The notes beneath the pieces were generated by a model, which was not told the origin of the DNA, ran no database searches, and worked only from the letters and a program-made list of their open reading frames with translations. Shown here piece by piece: positions 16,893 through 42,852 of a DNA stretch of 42,852 nt. The translations under genes and the position numbers were made by a program. The DNA comes from a virus. Positions within the stretch are counted from its first letter, which is position 1. Each line of letters opens with the position of its first letter. The stretch covers positions 1 through 42,852 of IMG/VR virus record IMGVR_UViG_3300023284_000760. One strand, given 5' to 3'.

Positions 16893-17331
16893 GACCGGGC
16901 TCCACCACCTCCACCGTCCAAGCCATTGCAATCGGCTTGCCTTCAGCCCCAGTAACCTCACGCCGATCACGCCATCGGGTGGGCTGCCTGTTCTTCAACC
17001 AGAAAATGCCAGCTGCAGTATCGGGCGGGTAATGTTTGGTCAATTCAGTTTGCGTGATCTTGCCCTGATAATTGCTGATATGCACATCAGAATGTGAGTA
17101 GCCATTGGCACGCTGATACAAACTCTTGGCCACATTAGAATCAGCTAACTCCTTGCCTTCCCTTATGGACTCAAGAAATTCAGGGTGTTCGTTCTTCCAA
17201 TTATTGATCGTTGTTTCGGAAACCCCAAAGAAATCAGCAAGATCCTTATCCGTCGCACCCATCAGGCACGCCTTCTTGGCCTGCTTGGATGTCTTCTTTG
17301 GATCGTATTCTGATGGTCTTCCAGCTGGCAT
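16882..17331 (-). CDS. Terminase small subunit, 149 aa
   Basis: The N terminus MPAGRPSEYDPKK leads into a helix-turn-helix (ACLMGATDKDLADFFGVSE then TTINNWKNEHPEF, residues ~21-51). The conserved middle of terminase small subunits follows (LYQRANGYSH.DVHIS.YQG and KHYPPDTAAGIFWLKNRQP.RWRDR). It recognises the pac site and stimulates the large subunit. The pac site is often inside this gene in headful phages, but I cannot locate it from sequence alone. Confidence 0.93.
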   Translation of the reverse strand: MPAGRPSEYDPKKTSKQAKKACLMGATDKDLADFFGVSETTINNWKNEHPEFLESIREGKELADSNVAKSLYQRANGYSHSDVHISNYQGKITQTELTKHYPPDTAAGIFWLKNRQPTRWRDRREVTGAEGKPIAMAWTVEVVEPGHAD

Positions 17332-17334
17332 TAT

Positions 17335-17619
17335 TTAGTCCGCCTTGCCAACATGCTCATGAACAATATCAGCCATGCGCTCTTCCTTGTCGCCGTGATT
17401 AATGTCCCAAGGTCCACCACACCAATCACCATCGCTTGGACGCATCACAGTATAGTCCTCGTTGCCATCATCATCGAGTGTCTGCCAAATGACAGCAAAC
17501 GGATATTTGATATCCCTAGCTCTCATCAGGTCACACAAAACAACAAACGCCCTACGCATATCGGCCTGCTTTAGTGTTTCCTGATACTTCGCTTCTTCTT
17601 CCACTGTTCGCTTATTCAT
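17335..17619 (-). CDS. Hypothetical protein, 94 aa, upstream of terminase
   Basis: Starts MNKRTVEEEAKYQETLKQAD after GGAAGG. Acidic and soluble, with PFAVIWQTLDDDGNEDY in the middle and a His/Asp-rich C terminus (MADIVHEHVGKAD). Ends 3 nt before the small-terminase start, so co-expressed with packaging genes. I do not recognise the family. Confidence 0.7.
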   Translation of the reverse strand: MNKRTVEEEAKYQETLKQADMRRAFVVLCDLMRARDIKYPFAVIWQTLDDDGNEDYTVMRPSDGDWCGGPWDINHGDKEERMADIVHEHVGKAD

Positions 17620-25905: not shown

Positions 25906-26062
25906 CAGTTTTCGCCTGTGTGTCTGGATCACGCCCGGATCGGCGTTGCTTCCACCGGAATTTCCAGTAAAAGTATTCGTATGCAATGTAATTCTTGCAA
26001 TGTTGGCAATGCCTAGAGAGCGCGAGCCACGCCTGCTGTGATCTAGTGAGTGGTACGTTCAT
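25898..26062 (-). CDS. Small protein, 54 aa
   Basis: ATG 26062 overlaps the upstream stop as ATGA, and the end overlaps the next start by 8 nt. Sequence MNVPLTRSQQAWLALSRHC, then QHCKNYIAYEYFYWKFRWKQRR, is aromatic and basic. CxxC within RHCQHCKN may bind zinc. Family unknown. Confidence 0.65.
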   Translation of the reverse strand: MNVPLTRSQQAWLALSRHCQHCKNYIAYEYFYWKFRWKQRRSGRDPDTQAKTDE

Positions 26063-26403
26063 TTCTCAGTGCGTCCTCGGTCGTTAGACTCCAAAGCCTT
26101 CACGTAAGCCCCTATGATTGCACGGGGGAGTGATTCGTCTGCAACCCAGGCAGCTGTTGTCCAGTCATTAGGGCAATATGTACACGCACAGTAATGCAGG
26201 CCCTTTTCGTCAATACCAACTTCCAGTTCGTGATATTCGTCGTCGGCCCACCTTTCCATCAATGCCCCGGCTACTCGCCAGTCACGGACGAAATGGTCTT
26301 CGCGTCCCATGCCCTTGAAGTAAACAAAGTCGTCAAGGCCGCTGCCCGGACGTTTTCCTATTCCCAACGCAATAACCTTGTCTGCCAGTTCTTTGTCAAT
26401 CAT
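26059..26403 (-). CDS. Small early protein, 114 aa, paralogue of 31872-32183
   Basis: The first residues MIDKELADKVIALGIGKR, the middle FVRDWRVAGALMERW, and the end SLPRAIIGAYVKALESN align with the 103-aa protein at 31872-32183. The central part differs and includes CACTYCPNDW here. A similar N-terminal and C-terminal layout is seen in early phage proteins of unknown function. The motif at 26402-26420 lies at its start. Confidence 0.75.
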   Translation of the reverse strand: MIDKELADKVIALGIGKRPGSGLDDFVYFKGMGREDHFVRDWRVAGALMERWADDEYHELEVGIDEKGLHYCACTYCPNDWTTAAWVADESLPRAIIGAYVKALESNDRGRTEK

Positions 26404-26703: not shown

Positions 26704-26793
26704 TTAATTACCAGTATCCAATAGTCGACTAGAAAATCCCAATGAAATCAATCTGGTGCACAAGTATTTTGCAAGCATCATGTCAATTTCCAT
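26704..26793 (-). CDS. Micropeptide, 29 aa (possible)
   Basis: Open frame from ATG 26793: MEIDMMLAKYLCTRLISLG, then FSSRLLDTGN, stop at 26704. It fills the gap between copy 1 of the 134-bp element and the 84-aa gene. No ribosome site better than GAAATGG is visible, so coding status is uncertain. The interval from 26794 to 26821 shows nothing else. Confidence 0.35.
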   Translation of the reverse strand: MEIDMMLAKYLCTRLISLGFSSRLLDTGN

Positions 26794-26821
26794 TTCAGCG
26801 CGTAGTACTAGAACAGTAATC

Positions 26822-26955
26822 TTTGAAGATGATAGTTGGTGTGAACTTTTCGTTGGCTTCCCACGGTATATCGGTTCAGCCGCCTCAACGAAGGGGGGTG
26901 GACTCCAACCAGCTTACTTACTGGCCCTCCGGTATTGCTACCTATCATCATCAAA
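26822..26955 (-). repeat. 134-bp repeated element, copy 1 (structured)
   Basis: 115 bp (116 counting 26821) are identical to copy 2 at 27303-27436; the last ~19 bp differ. The ends are complementary: minus strand TTTGATGATGATAG at one end, CTATCATCTTCAAA at the other. Internal stems: CCAG(8 nt)CTGG, and TTCGTTG pairing with CAACGAA, with an inner GGCT/AGCC. It lies 2 nt after the stop of the 75-aa gene. Confidence 0.85.
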
Positions 26956-26957
26956 AT

Positions 26958-27185
26958 TCACTGCCCTCTTACTACAGAATATTTCTCACCCCACCAGTCA
27001 ATCGCCGCCTCACGATACGTTCCAGGCCAGTCAGGTTCATAAACAGCAATGCGCTCACCAGTGAAGAACAGAAATTCGTATCCTGTCTCTCGCTGAAAGA
27101 ACAGTGGCACACCATCCGCGCCAACCTTCGTAAGTTCGTTATCTTGCAGTTCTTGTATGAACGTCCAGTTTTCGTGAATTTTCAA
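26958..27185 (-). CDS. Early protein, 75 aa (TTG start), inside the repeat-flanked cassette
   Basis: Start chosen at TTG 27185, which has AAGGA about 7 nt upstream; the frame is open further upstream but overlaps the 27-aa gene. Sequence KIHENWTFIQELQDNELTKV then VPLFFQRETGYEFLFFTGERIAVYEPDW and TYREAAIDWWGEKYSVV. It looks like a compact beta-rich domain. Function unknown. Its stop is followed at once by copy 1 of the 134-bp element. Confidence 0.65.
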   Translation of the reverse strand: MKIHENWTFIQELQDNELTKVGADGVPLFFQRETGYEFLFFTGERIAVYEPDWPGTYREAAIDWWGEKYSVVRGQ

Positions 27186-27195
27186 CGCTGTATCC

Positions 27196-27279
27196 TTAGA
27201 GCAGAAGCAAAGCCAATGAAAGCCCCGCCGCAGCTCCAAAACACCATCCAGATATAAACTCTAACTCTCTGTCACTCAT
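27196..27279 (-). CDS. Micropeptide with one membrane segment, 27 aa
   Basis: ATG 27279 follows TTAGGAGCACAAA, a strong ribosome site. MSDRELEFISG then WCFGAAAGLSLALLLL, a single short hydrophobic helix. It is the first gene after copy 2 of the element and probably coupled to the 75-aa gene. Function unknown. Confidence 0.6.
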   Translation of the reverse strand: MSDRELEFISGWCFGAAAGLSLALLLL

Positions 27280-27302
27280 TTTGTGCTCCTAAGACAAAAT
27301 AC

Positions 27303-27436
27303 TTTGAAGATGATAGTTGGTGTGAACTTTTCGTTGGCTTCCCACGGTATATCGGTTCAGCCGCCTCAACGAAGGGGGGTGGACTCCAACCAGCTTACTT
27401 ACTGGCCCTCCGGTATTTCTGCTCATCACCTTCAAA
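27303..27436 (-). repeat. 134-bp repeated element, copy 2 (structured)
   Basis: Same length and internal stems as copy 1. Its diverged end reads TTTGAAGGTGATGAG and still pairs with the constant end. It lies 13 nt after the stop of the membrane gene 27450-27608. Copies 1 and 2 are in direct orientation 481 bp apart, with two small genes between them. Plus-strand open frames through both copies are shadows. Confidence 0.85.
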
Positions 27437-27449
27437 ATACTCTGTATGC

Positions 27450-27608
27450 TCACGACAGCAACCACGGATAAAGACATAGCAATACAACGACTACACCGGT
27501 AAACAATCCAATCGTCCAGGTTCTAAGGCCCTCAATATCTGCCGCAGAGGCAAGCGCACCAACAACAAAGCCCATAGCAATTACTACAAACGCGGCCAGA
27601 AAATTCAC
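27450..27608 (-). CDS. Small two-helix membrane protein, 52 aa (GTG start)
   Basis: GTG 27608 overlaps the upstream stop as GTGA. Two hydrophobic segments: MNFLAAFVVIAMGFVVGALA and WTIGLFTGVVVVLLCLYPWLL, joined by SAADIEGLRT. Its stop is 13 nt before copy 2 of the repeated element. Role unknown; inner-membrane location predicted. Confidence 0.7.
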   Translation of the reverse strand: MNFLAAFVVIAMGFVVGALASAADIEGLRTWTIGLFTGVVVVLLCLYPWLLS

Positions 27609-28240
27609 GGCGCGTGCCCAAGGTGGGCACGCGCAGCACCCGTTTCAGTAACGTCTGCGAGTTCGCCGCAGTCCCTACATTTCGCAGTCCCATCACCCTT
27701 TGAGCGGAAATCATGTGGTGGGCAGGTCTGTCCTTGTTCGTCAGGAAACTTTCGGCCATCTCCACCAGTACGCACACCGCACTTTTTGCAAATCACATAC
27801 ATTTTCCCGTTCGTAAGGTGGTCACATGGCGCGAGTGCCTCACCTACAGGCGGCAAATCATCCAGGTCCACCTCAACTAATTGAGGGTCTGCTAATCGCT
27901 CCTTGACAGTTTCTGTCAGCCTTGAGTCGGCAGGAATGCCGGTTGCTGTGCCGGTTGGATCACTGGCCTGACATGCGTCACAATCGCGCCAATGTTCCTT
28001 GTATGGGTAGCTAGTGCGTCCTTTCTCACGCATTATCCAGTACGAACATTTCTGTATTGTCTGCACAGGCGGGACATCAGGCCAACCGAGTGTTTCAATG
28101 GCGTCTATGACAAGCTCAAACGCTTCCAATGAACTGTTTGCATATGTGGCGACATCTGGGAACTCTTTACACGTCCCCATAGCGCATAGATCGCCGTCCT
28201 CGTCGATAAATGGTTTAACCTCAATATGCGGGAATCTCAT
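27605..28240 (-). CDS. HicB-like domain fused to zinc ribbon, 211 aa
   Basis: Residues ~12-50 (DEDGDLCAMGTCKEFPDVATYA then EAFELVIDAIETL) resemble the HicB/antitoxin-like partial RNase H fold. Residues ~78-90 have CDAC (WRDCDACQAS). The C-terminal third has CDHLTNGKMYVICKKCGV and CPPHDFRSKGDGTAKCRDCGEL, two zinc-ribbon-type clusters. There is no toxin gene (HicA) beside it. An early regulatory or DNA-binding protein is a reasonable inference. Confidence 0.7.
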   Translation of the reverse strand: MRFPHIEVKPFIDEDGDLCAMGTCKEFPDVATYANSSLEAFELVIDAIETLGWPDVPPVQTIQKCSYWIMREKGRTSYPYKEHWRDCDACQASDPTGTATGIPADSRLTETVKERLADPQLVEVDLDDLPPVGEALAPCDHLTNGKMYVICKKCGVRTGGDGRKFPDEQGQTCPPHDFRSKGDGTAKCRDCGELADVTETGAARAHLGHAP

Positions 28241-30826: not shown

Positions 30827-31071
30827 AAAGTCTGTCTTCGTCGGTCAGTCACATCATTGTCCTCAGACATAGCTTCCCCCTTTGTAGGGAGGTTAGGCCC
30901 TACTAGTGGCAGGTATGGTTCGCACATATTGTGTGCCTCCCACCAGGTTGTCAGGGGTCGACAGTGCCTGGGTTTGATTACACATGAGATTAAAGCCCTC
31001 CGGCATTCGGGTTTGAGTTCCACAAACTGCTTTAAAGGCAACTGGACACGGCTGTAATCTAACCGGGACAT
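30823..31071 (-). CDS. Possible early protein, 82 aa, overlapping another frame
   Basis: MSRLDYSRVQLPLKQFVELK then CRRALISCVIKPRHCRPLTTWW, ending MSEDNDVTDRRRQTF. It is basic and protein-like. It overlaps the last ~60 codons of the 157-codon frame 30893-31366, so only one may be used, or both. A short form from an internal ATG with AAGGGGGAAGCT upstream (15 codons, SEDNDVTDRRRQTF) is also possible. Confidence 0.45.
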   Translation of the reverse strand: MSRLDYSRVQLPLKQFVELKPECRRALISCVIKPRHCRPLTTWWEAHNMCEPYLPLVGPNLPTKGEAMSEDNDVTDRRRQTF

Positions 31072-31366
31072 ACAGCCTGTTACCCAAACTAAAAGCCTCT
31101 CCGCCCTTACCGGATCGTCGACTTAGGGGTTCATTGATATCCCCATCAAGGCTAGTGGTCCAATCACCATCAAAACAGTTTATTTTACGGTTAACCTGAG
31201 GAAAACACCGCTGGTTGGGTGTTGAGGCCGGCATTGACACAAGATGTTGTGCTAGACTTATCTTGTCTGGTGTCGGGTACCAACTTTCAACCAGATTTGA
31301 AGGGGCTTTCAGTGCAATACTGACGGCCCTTTCGTTTATTGAGACTACGCTATTTCGGTCAATCAT
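30893..31366 (-). CDS. Possible early protein, 157 aa
   Basis: ATG 31366 overlaps the upstream stop as ATGA, which favours translation. MIDRNSVVSINERAVSIALK leads into a Pro/Asn/Ser/Thr-rich sequence (PDKISLAQHLVSMPASTPNQ, FDGDWTTSLDGDINEP). The composition is unusual and no domain is seen. The region could instead be a structured, partly non-coding segment, since several short complementary stretches lie within it. Confidence 0.45.
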   Translation of the reverse strand: MIDRNSVVSINERAVSIALKAPSNLVESWYPTPDKISLAQHLVSMPASTPNQRCFPQVNRKINCFDGDWTTSLDGDINEPLSRRSGKGGEAFSLGNRLYVPVRLQPCPVAFKAVCGTQTRMPEGFNLMCNQTQALSTPDNLVGGTQYVRTIPATSRA

Positions 31367-31710: not shown

Positions 31711-31879
31711 TACCAAGCTCCCACAATTCCACACACTCAGCTTTGCTGTAGGTATCAATACAGTCTTTCAGAAAACCCCACTTCTCATAAGGTTCTGCAA
31801 TAACGAACAGCAACAAAGCCATAATAATCAACCCGACAATCACGCCCCAAATCTCATTTGAAATATCGTCGTCAGTCAC
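31703..31879 (-). CDS. Small membrane protein, 58 aa (GTG start)
   Basis: GTG 31879 overlaps the upstream stop by 8 nt. MTDDDISNEI, then one hydrophobic helix (WGVIVGLIIMALLLFVIAEP), then YEKWGFLKDCIDTYSKAECVELWE. This is a known type of phage peptide with a Cys pair in its outer tail, function unknown. The start and end overlaps fit a coupled gene. Confidence 0.7.
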   Translation of the reverse strand: MTDDDISNEIWGVIVGLIIMALLLFVIAEPYEKWGFLKDCIDTYSKAECVELWELGNG

Positions 31880-32183
31880 TTAACGCCTCCACATAAGCCT
31901 CAATGATTGCGCGCGGAAGTGAAGTTTGAATTATCTTCACTTCCACATTAATTACATCAGGACTATGTACCCGATAATTCTGTTCTGCGCGATGCACTAT
32001 TATTGGAGTTTCATACCTCTCTATCAATACCCCGGCTACTCGCCAGTCACGGACGAACCACTTTGCATTGCCGCTGTTTCCGCCAATGGCGTAATCGCCC
32101 TTCTCGTTTATCCAGTCGCTTTCCTCAAGGACTCTACCAATACCCAACGCAATAACTTTGTCTGCCAGTTCTTTGTCAGTCAT
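31872..32183 (-). CDS. Small early protein, 103 aa, paralogue of 26059-26403
   Basis: MTDKELADKVIALGIGR, WFVRDWRVAGVLIERY and LPRAIIEAYVEALSD match the 114-aa protein at 26059-26403 at both ends; the middle is different. Likely product of duplication and divergence, or of domain swapping at the centre. Function unknown. Confidence 0.75.
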   Translation of the reverse strand: MTDKELADKVIALGIGRVLEESDWINEKGDYAIGGNSGNAKWFVRDWRVAGVLIERYETPIIVHRAEQNYRVHSPDVINVEVKIIQTSLPRAIIEAYVEALSD

Positions 32184-37754: not shown

Positions 37755-38042
37755 TTACCGATTGGCTCGTCTTTCTAAATCTGCGACAAATAGTCCAGTC
37801 AGGTGATCAATCTTTCCTTCGACGCGTACCATACTACCGTCAATACGAATAACACTTGACTCCATTCCTTCCATTTTTGCAATCAGTGTCGTGACCTCCT
37901 TTGGCGTTTGTTCGCCCTTATGCAGCGCGTCAACCTGGCGTTTTACTTCGCTTTGAATATAATATGGCACACCCCAAAATTGTGCACCGAGAAAAGCGAC
38001 GATTGCCGCAGCAATTGCAAATCCCTTCATGATTTTACTCAT
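37755..38042 (-). CDS. Membrane-anchored coiled-coil protein, 95 aa
   Basis: ATG 38042 overlaps the upstream stop by 8 nt and is preferred to 38057. MSKIMKGFAIAAAIVAFLGA carries one membrane helix, and the rest (LHKGEQTPKEVTTLIAKMEG..MVRVEGKIDHLTGLF) is helical. It resembles the 88-aa protein in layout. Function unknown. Confidence 0.65.
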   Translation of the reverse strand: MSKIMKGFAIAAAIVAFLGAQFWGVPYYIQSEVKRQVDALHKGEQTPKEVTTLIAKMEGMESSVIRIDGSMVRVEGKIDHLTGLFVADLERRANR

Positions 38043-38691
38043 TTGGCGGTTCCTCAATCTGTCGTATCTCTTCGATCAACTGCTGCGCATATTCACGATC
38101 GGCTTGCTTTTCCCGGCGTTGCTGAACTGCATATTTGTTGGCCGCTGTCGCGGCCGTGCGTTGTTCCTCAATGAGTACAACCAATTGTTGCTGCAGTTCA
38201 CGCACCTCCTGTTGATGCGAATCGTCCTCATCGTGATCATCCCTGTCTTGAATAACCGGAAGATCAACAAGCCCCACCATTGTTACTGCGTCAATACAGA
38301 TGTCAAAGGTTTCGAAAGCACTATAGATTGTCTTCACATGCTTACATCGAACACGCGCCGCGGCGTCGTGGTTGCCCCTGGCATCCAATCCATCGGCAAT
38401 ACAGGTGGCATTTTCCTCAAGCGTTTGCCAGCCGACAATGATGATACTCATGGCCTTACTTGCCAGGCACTGGTTGATATCGACGTCAAATGATCCCTGA
38501 CCGATGGCAAATGCGCGATCACCGGCAATATCCAGAGAGTCTCTACCGAGCTCATTGGTGACAATCGTTTCCACTTCCGTATTGGTGATGTCGTCACCAT
38601 AGCGATAATCATCGTCAGCACGCGCCTGCACACACCACGCTAGCAAGAACGGCAAGGTAAAGCCCAACAGATAAGCGTTCAAATTTCGCAT
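38035..38691 (-). CDS. Exported protein, 218 aa
   Basis: ATG 38691 is the likely start (MRNLNAYLLGFTLPFLLAWC); it has a signal peptide probably cleaved after VQARA, leaving DDDYRYGDDIT. The middle has three or more Cys residues (INQCLAS, ENATCIADG, ARVRCKHV, DICIDAV), which may form disulfides in the periplasm. The C-terminal ~60 residues form a coiled coil (HQQEVRELQQQLVVLIEEQRTAA). It may be a periplasmic phage protein with lysis or exclusion roles. Family unknown. Confidence 0.7.
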   Translation of the reverse strand: MRNLNAYLLGFTLPFLLAWCVQARADDDYRYGDDITNTEVETIVTNELGRDSLDIAGDRAFAIGQGSFDVDINQCLASKAMSIIIVGWQTLEENATCIADGLDARGNHDAAARVRCKHVKTIYSAFETFDICIDAVTMVGLVDLPVIQDRDDHDEDDSHQQEVRELQQQLVVLIEEQRTAATAANKYAVQQRREKQADREYAQQLIEEIRQIEEPPNE

Positions 38692-41888: not shown

Positions 41889-42852
41889 TTATCCACCAAC
41901 TCTGATCATTAAAAAGATAATTGATGGTACTCTTGGTGCGGTTGGCGGCCCGACGACCGGGTCGGTATTCTTCAATCCCATGCCTACCGCCGCGTTACTT
42001 ACTACCTGCATCATTCGTATTTTATCGCCAACCTGTAACTGAAGGGTGATTGCAGAAGCAATAACATCGGTGATATCGGAATCTTTAATCGTTAAGGTAA
42101 TATTTGAATTGTCTTCATCGACAAATCCAGAGCCTCTATCGACTTGTAAGAACATATTGAAATCTACTTTCAGGCCGCCCGCATCCTTGCCGACTTGTGG
42201 CTGAGCGATAATGGAGTAAGTTCCTTCAAATCCCGGTAGTATTTCTAATTCGCCAGTATTAAGAGTTGTCGAATGCCCGATCCCGTTAATCGAGTCGTGG
42301 TTAGTGTACGTAATAACTGTCGGATTAGTATCCGCTGGTATCTGGTCGATGATACTATGAAGTTGGGCAAAAATAGTACTAGACCTAGCAACGTCCTCTG
42401 CCTTAAATCCGATGTAAACATTTCCCAAATTAACAGTATTGACACCGTTAATAACTTCTTTAATGGCGATATCTAAAACTAAAGTTCGTAACCCGTTATA
42501 TAGGATTTCCGGAACAGCAGGATTTTGATTCTGTAAGGTAATCAGACCGCCTACATTATTCGCCGCCAACCGTAACACCGATCCGATAAGTCTCGGATTT
42601 CCATCAGGTAAGATAACTATATAGTCCCGCTTCCCTTCTGGGATATTTATCTGCACCACATTTGCTGCCATCGTAGCCGCGGCCAAGGTTTTTGTAGCGG
42701 CTGCTTCGAAAATTGTCACGCCGAAATTGTCGTGATACGAAATCCGATCAGCGCCACCAGTAGATCCACTACTAACTATTATCTGCGTCCCTAAACCGCC
42801 ACCATTAACAAGAAATAGTGGAACAAAAGTCGTCAGTATTCCGTTGATAAAT
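41889..42852 (-). CDS. Large tail fibre protein, C-terminal part (continuation of 1-2459)
   Basis: Carries the last ~273 codons of the 1,092-residue fibre, ending at TAA 41889. An apparent GTG start at 42719 is only an internal valine codon. The C-terminal region is rich in Asn, Thr, Ile and Val, contains a segment typical of beta-sandwich domains (about 42250-42000), and ends IFLMIRVGG. The stop is 5 nt before the next small gene (41883), and the tailspike follows. Bases 42709-42852 repeat 1-144. Confidence 0.85.
   Translation of the reverse strand, partial: FINGILTTFVPLFLVNGGGLGTQIIVSSGSTGGADRISYHDNFGVTIFEAAATKTLAAATMAANVVQINIPEGKRDYIVILPDGNPRLIGSVLRLAANNVGGLITLQNQNPAVPEILYNGLRTLVLDIAIKEVINGVNTVNLGNVYIGFKAEDVARSSTIFAQLHSIIDQIPADTNPTVITYTNHDSINGIGHSTTLNTGELEILPGFEGTYSIIAQPQVGKDAGGLKVDFNMFLQVDRGSGFVDEDNSNITLTIKDSDITDVIASAITLQLQVGDKIRMMQVVSNAAVGMGLKNTDPVVGPPTAPRVPSIIFLMIRVGG
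42709..42852. repeat. Terminal direct repeat, right copy
   Basis: Exact copy of bases 1-144. Removing one copy leaves a 42,708-bp circle. Confidence 0.95.

Follow-up and report, generated by a model that had tools for sequence, protein, structure and literature searches.

A repeated stem-closed element with exchangeable heads in a virus genome suggests a modular family of phage RNAs

The window analysed here, the whole 42,852-base virus record, carries two direct copies of a 134-bp sequence around two small reading frames, and raises the question of whether these copies border a mobile gene cassette, are themselves mobile DNA, or act as RNA. The window encodes a P22-like coat protein, a portal and a Terminase_3 large subunit. 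Its ends, positions 1–144 and 42709–42852, form an exact 144-bp direct repeat, which suggests a complete genome that was circularly assembled or is terminally redundant.

The two copies lie at 26822–26955 and 27303–27436, where the first-pass annotation had placed them, with a start-to-start spacing of 481 bp. They are closer to each other than the 115 identical bases given there, as 128 of 134 positions are identical and six differ. The longest exact run spans 116 bp (26821–26936 and 27302–27417, minus strand) and, in the terms used below, comprises the head and the inner part of the 3′ arm. Weaker similarity widens the repeat by about 15–20 bp on each side, to 26808–26977 and 27289–27458 (88% over 170 positions). 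Apart from the repeat at the contig ends, the window has no other direct repeat longer than 48 bp, so the similarity is far beyond chance, and since the copies differ both within and outside the core, a single sequence assembled twice is unlikely. As described earlier, stop codons lie upstream of the copies on the minus strand, 2 nt from the first and 13 nt from the second. Elsewhere on this strand, two paralogous genes (26059–26403 and 31872–32183) share start segments of 48 and 43 bp at 92–93% identity, the remainder having diverged.

On the minus strand, which is the gene strand, a base stem (the stalk) closes a head of about 100 nt in each copy and extends into the diverged flanks. Element A (26811–26966) consists of a 5′ arm at 26941–26966, which contains the stop codon of the 75-aa gene (26958–26960), a head at 26837–26940 and a 3′ arm at 26811–26836. 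Element B (27292–27447) has its 5′ arm at 27422–27447, its head at 27318–27421 and its 3′ arm at 27292–27317, and its stalk is formed of 22 contiguous base pairs. Over 22 columns, the minus strand pairs at 20 (A) and 22 (B), compared to 17 and 17 for the plus strand. A and B have identical heads; their stalk arms and outer flanks differ and still pair. Eight columns differ between the two: two have changed on both sides with pairing kept (U-A to A-U and A-U to U-A), four have changed on one side with the pair kept, and two form a pair in B but a mismatch in A.

This comparison is independent of pairing, as A and B were identified as a pair by sequence. In 200,000 trials that placed the same substitutions randomly on the arms, as many pairs were kept in 0.06% of cases from A to B and in 0.9% from B to A; a shuffle of the 3′ letters on A and B alone, which draws on two sequences only, was not significant (102/500). 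Folds of 166 nt on the minus strand gave z −3.6 for A, with 0/200 shuffles as good, and z −2.5 for B (4/200), compared to −2.2 and −1.0 on the plus strand. Among 64 non-overlapping minus-strand tiles of the same length, from 22 to 32.6 kb, one reached z −3.79 and the next lowest −2.02. Taken without the stalk, the heads of the 11 family members described below show no folding advantage over shuffled sequence (z −1.7 to +2.1), so a folded functional head is not supported. Other strong folds occur on the minus strand of the window. A segment at 31814–31979 (z −3.4) has a strong hairpin and overlaps the gene at 31872–32183, and a long-range stem at 37817–37979 (z −4.1), unrelated to the stalk motif, lies inside a possible coding gene (frame 37755–38057).

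Searches with the whole A/B element found no homologue. A 19-mer and a 17-mer matched none of the viral contigs, and blastn searches of phages and plasmids returned no convincing match. Two 16-mers occurred in 6 and 14 viral contigs, and one in 39 bacterial contigs; the 6 and the 39 were at chance level on flank comparison, and the 14 scored no better in a comparison made without a separate shuffle control. A covariance model built on A and B recovered no sequence but these two from 47 sources, and none from 80 relative records; the model misses relatives because their heads differ. At the gathering cut-off, Rfam 15 gave no match in the window or in eight relative loci. The best sub-threshold match in 26750–27500, Sphinx_2 (E 0.98), is an unrelated lncRNA and was rejected. 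ARAGORN found no tRNA or tmRNA in the window or in 11 relative loci.

The family emerges when the stalk is separated from the head. We scanned each strand of the window for 22-nt arms 60–150 nt apart in which 20 or more of the 22 positions pair, and found five stems on the minus strand and none on the plus strand, with zero to one in four shuffled versions. A and B are among the five, as is a third member, element C (31020–31185, minus strand), which combines the A/B stalk sequence with an unrelated head (fold z −4.1, 0/200 shuffles); by reading, 14 of 16 bases of its 5′ arm are as in A. Scanning 40 loci of 23 related phage records at 19 pairs gave many chance stems, and among the matches listed were arms with the stalk sequence in loci L087 and L100 and a similar arm in L084. 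A member in L101 was added by motif search, which brings the type-1 members to seven: A, B, C, L087a, L100a, L084 and L101.

A two-arm scoring matrix combined with pairing placed all seven members at 55–72, compared to 31.6 for the best reversed-sequence control, the matrix having been trained on the same members. In a leave-one-out version, with A and B omitted together, six of the seven remained above their controls (35.5 to 55.1 versus 27.7 to 33.9); element A fell below (25.1 versus 33.9) and is joined to the family via B. Because full elements are poorly aligned by MAFFT, the arms were aligned by pairing register. Across the seven members, 14 of 21 pairs have changed on both sides and 93.2% of cells are paired, figures that are biased upward because pairing led to C, L087a, L100a and L084, and a motif together with pairing to L101. 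None of 500 shuffles paired as highly, a control that does not yield a probability, and slid versions paired at 35–52%. Five pairs, one of them a U.G wobble, are invariant (UUUU-A with U-AAAG). Six of the seven members have a mismatch one step further in. The stalk consensus is about YAGRCUGUUUUGA-U-GGUGR paired with YCAYC-U-UYAAAGCAGUU, usually with a U.U-type mismatch. Beyond these seven, a stalk pattern allowing three mismatches gave scattered matches in 39 records, a relaxed two-arm scan yielded no further accepted phage member, and no type-1 matrix score exceeded 36 in five isolate phages (Sortsne, 4_4512, AH02, ZP9 and PVA1) and other viral loci.

A second type of stalk was identified with blastn, which is blind to pairing. 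Arms of about 33–42 nt are common to noncoding stretches of L100, L091 and L099, with identities of 100% and 97.6% between L100 and L091 and of 100% and 84.6% between L100 and L099. These arms pair, and their interiors differ. Head similarity is at chance between L100b and L099b and between L091b and L099b, while the heads of L100b and L091b are more alike than shuffles (score 28 versus 20; p 0.005, 200 shuffles). A second L087 element (17212–17364) has the same internal pattern as the type-2 elements. Together, these comparisons show heads and stalks in different combinations: A and B carry one head on diverged stalks, and L100, L091 and L099 carry largely different heads on one stalk. Elsewhere in their own phage genome, exact matches to the A/B and C heads are no longer than expected by chance. 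A 148-nt repeat in L091 (10554–10701 and 11020–11167) was rejected as an RNA candidate, as it is the shared start of two paralogous neighbouring genes, whose products have a common N-terminal part of about 48 residues and different C-terminal parts.

The total is 11 elements in six of 24 records: three in the window, one in L084, two in L087, three in L100 and L101 (one record), and one each in L091 and L099. Many of the 24 records are fragments, and the L087 record was covered up to its last 228 bases. All 11 members have one stalk and a variable head, and range from 101 to 203 nt. The conserved stalk with mostly unrelated heads suggests, at the level of sequence, that these related uncultured phages share a modular RNA family, possibly a new one.

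The elements sit in gene gaps or in a noncoding array. Wherever neighbouring genes are listed (A, B, C, L084, L101, L087 and L100), they lie in gene-sense orientation; for L091 and L099, orientation was judged by the strand of a gene several kilobases distant. The stop codon upstream of A, L084 and L101 falls within the 5′ arm. Element C occupies the array locus (30857–31343, minus strand), between two blocks conserved in L100 and L097. One of these blocks is 88.9% identical over 126 nt between the window and L100, and the block indels are not multiples of three and so break any frame. In L100, two different elements lie between the same blocks. Array loci gave only chance-level matches to Rfam.

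Gain and loss can be seen at the portal-scaffold junction, which was compared across nine records with both genes. The junction holds an element in two (L084 and L101), is short (10–16 nt) and empty in four (the window, L088, L094 and L098), and holds other inserts in three (L087, L089 and L096). The L087 insert is about 110 nt and apparently noncoding; that of L089 contains a small reading frame, and its right flank resembles the 3′ end of the portal gene. The right flank of the L084 element likewise repeats the portal gene 3′ end (13 of 15 bases, by reading).

Such presence or absence at an orthologous site would also be expected of a miniature mobile DNA element, whose arms are terminal inverted repeats, recognized by a recombinase or transposase with its gene elsewhere, and whose head is cargo. 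This DNA-level hairpin is the strongest rival. It accommodates the conserved arms, the variable interior and the multiple sites per genome; the L084 flank repeat looks like a target duplication, and a similar repeat surrounds a different insert in L089. The sense bias would then reflect selection against a harmful orientation. We nevertheless consider it rather unlikely, as the arms co-vary with G.U pairs that help the RNA-sense strand only, and it is these pairs that favour RNA over mobile DNA. No flanking duplication was noticed by reading at A or B. The recombinase search covered tyrosine integrase (PF00589), reverse transcriptase (PF00078, the mark of retrons and group II introns) and Y1 transposase (PF01797, the mark of REP/RAYT or IS200-like elements), and found none of the three in seven records; the integrase profile was recovered in 14/14 control genomes, and a host-supplied integrase is possible. 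The bacterial genomes searched, including 369 Gammaproteobacteria, had no convincing copy. The two-arm pattern occurred in 4 of these 369 (reversed control, 0), where the outer arms pair at 1–3 of 8 positions, compared to 6–8 of 8 in phage members, and these matches were rejected.

A mobile counterpart in architecture is the integron attC site. These sites likewise follow genes and form arrays. They recombine via the bottom strand, whereas the phage elements pair better on the gene-sense strand (20 and 22 versus 17 and 17 of 22). The attC R-box consensus is not evident by eye in the phage elements, and the seven phage records lack a tyrosine integrase. The two also have in common a paired stem with conserved interruptions beneath a variable top, as described for attC sites (PMC2727003). 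The resemblance is one of architecture, not of membership.

If the elements act as RNA, they could also do so in cis, as processive antiterminators in an early operon or as regulators of translation of the next gene. The model for the former is the HK022 put RNAs, which act on RNA polymerase; they are two similar cis elements of about 70 nt per genome, structured in early phage transcripts and each formed of two stem-loops (PMC9378689). The sense orientation in gene clusters and the two near-identical copies in one cluster fit this explanation, as does an AGGAG just after the stalk of B, while A has no clear ribosome-binding site 3′ of the element (by reading). The elements described here are longer than put, with one stalk, a variable head and a different predicted fold, and heads that are unrelated although they share a stalk do not resemble a single RNA polymerase-binding fold. 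In relatives, moreover, two copies follow the late portal gene. No sigma-70-like promoter was found in 26780–27480, and the base stem forms no intrinsic terminator (a GC hairpin with a U-run). We regard a cis-acting role as unlikely.

The first-pass annotation read the copies as flanks of a mobile two-gene module, and this touches on a third alternative, in which they are shuffling cassettes like the T4-type PeSLs, or the result of plain tandem duplication of a gene module, with an incidental RNA fold. The two frames between the copies do exist: a 27-aa membrane-peptide frame (27196–27279, minus strand) with a weak codon-usage score of 0.066, and a gene-like 75-aa frame (26958–27185, minus strand; TTG start) with a score of 0.228, relative to a gene median of 0.185. 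The 75/93-aa protein has no convincing relative in viral contigs or phages (best E 0.09). The direct repeats surround small genes in a fast-changing region, where most genes from 25.2 to 29 kb have no relatives in the 23 related records, and T4-type PeSLs are likewise intergenic repeated elements tied to gene shuffling (PMC4503421). A PeSL, however, joins a promoter to a stem-loop, and the repeat has no match for sigma-70-like sites, which are what this comparison covers. The stalk also co-varies, and elements stand singly, with no flanked cassette, in L084, L101, L087, L100 and at 31020–31185 of the window, an outcome that the first-pass annotation itself had named as speaking against its reading. 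The gain and loss proposed for the module thus holds for the repeated element, at the portal-scaffold site, and movement of the 27-aa/75-aa cassette is unsupported: relatives of its genes occur in none of the 23 records, and none of these, which lack both genes, is a relative missing exactly one 481-bp unit. Homologous deletion between the two 116-bp identical runs is possible. Overall, shuffling or duplication is an improbable account of the elements. A perfect 11-bp GC-rich hairpin (27610–27634, minus strand) also lies nearby, in the last codons of a 211-aa gene and just upstream of a 52-aa membrane peptide.

Finally, translation of the minus-strand frame of 45–48 aa, which is open in both copies with ATG starts near the 5′ arm, can practically be dismissed, as its codon score falls at the 1.3 percentile of real 39-codon gene stretches, three of the six frames through the repeat are open, and no relatives were found.

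The reading that we consider probable is that A and B are copies of a structured RNA module with a shared stalk and exchangeable heads, with cutting by RNase III as a further, inferred step. It starts from what the sequence comparisons establish, namely the stalk pairing, its strand, the family, presence or absence at one site and the mixing of heads with stalks. On this reading, the leftward gene cluster would be transcribed together with A and B, modules in which a long double-stranded stalk, common to the family in related phages, closes a head of roughly 50–150 nt. The modules occupy gene gaps or a noncoding array in sense orientation, and some begin at the stop codon upstream; heads and stalks combine independently, and modules are present or absent at an orthologous site. 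In A and B, one head would have been duplicated on two stalks, and selection or gene conversion would keep the two head copies identical.

With 22 contiguous pairs in B and 20 of 22 in A, about two helical turns, the stalk is close to the duplex length that RNase III accepts, and cutting there by the host enzyme would split the polycistronic mRNA at the module borders and free the head. Once free, the head may work independently as a small RNA, perhaps as a decoy or regulator; this function of the head is the weakest link of the proposal. At the T7 R sites, of which R1.1 is an early one, and in the stems of pre-rRNA, a long duplex likewise encloses or separates parts of one polycistronic transcript; the stalk described here differs in being conserved in sequence and bearing unrelated heads. 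RNase III cuts rRNA operon transcripts and R1.1 RNA (PMC4858673). Conservation of the stalk sequence suggests that sequence as well as duplex may be recognized.

Structured phage RNAs usually have a conserved core and variable edges. The elements described here have the base stalk in common instead, with turnover of the heads, and whole units are present or absent at one site in close relatives. Structured, dispersed phage RNA is a known kind, and GOLLD and ROOL are structured phage noncoding RNAs of unknown function, with conserved and less conserved regions reported for GOLLD (PMC12286853); the present elements are far smaller units and have no Rfam match. We found no published description of such elements in the literature searched, which lay mostly outside subscription journals. 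There is a real chance that the system is new. Tentatively, it could be an undescribed phage RNA system in which the stalk is a universal handle for a phage or host protein and the fast-turnover heads are interchangeable effectors, such as anti-defence decoys, spread by inserting directly after stop codons and collected in an array. If confirmed, the stalk would provide a signature with which to search phages for a hidden class of RNA cargo, and would pose the questions of whether it recruits RNase III or another protein and of what the heads bind.
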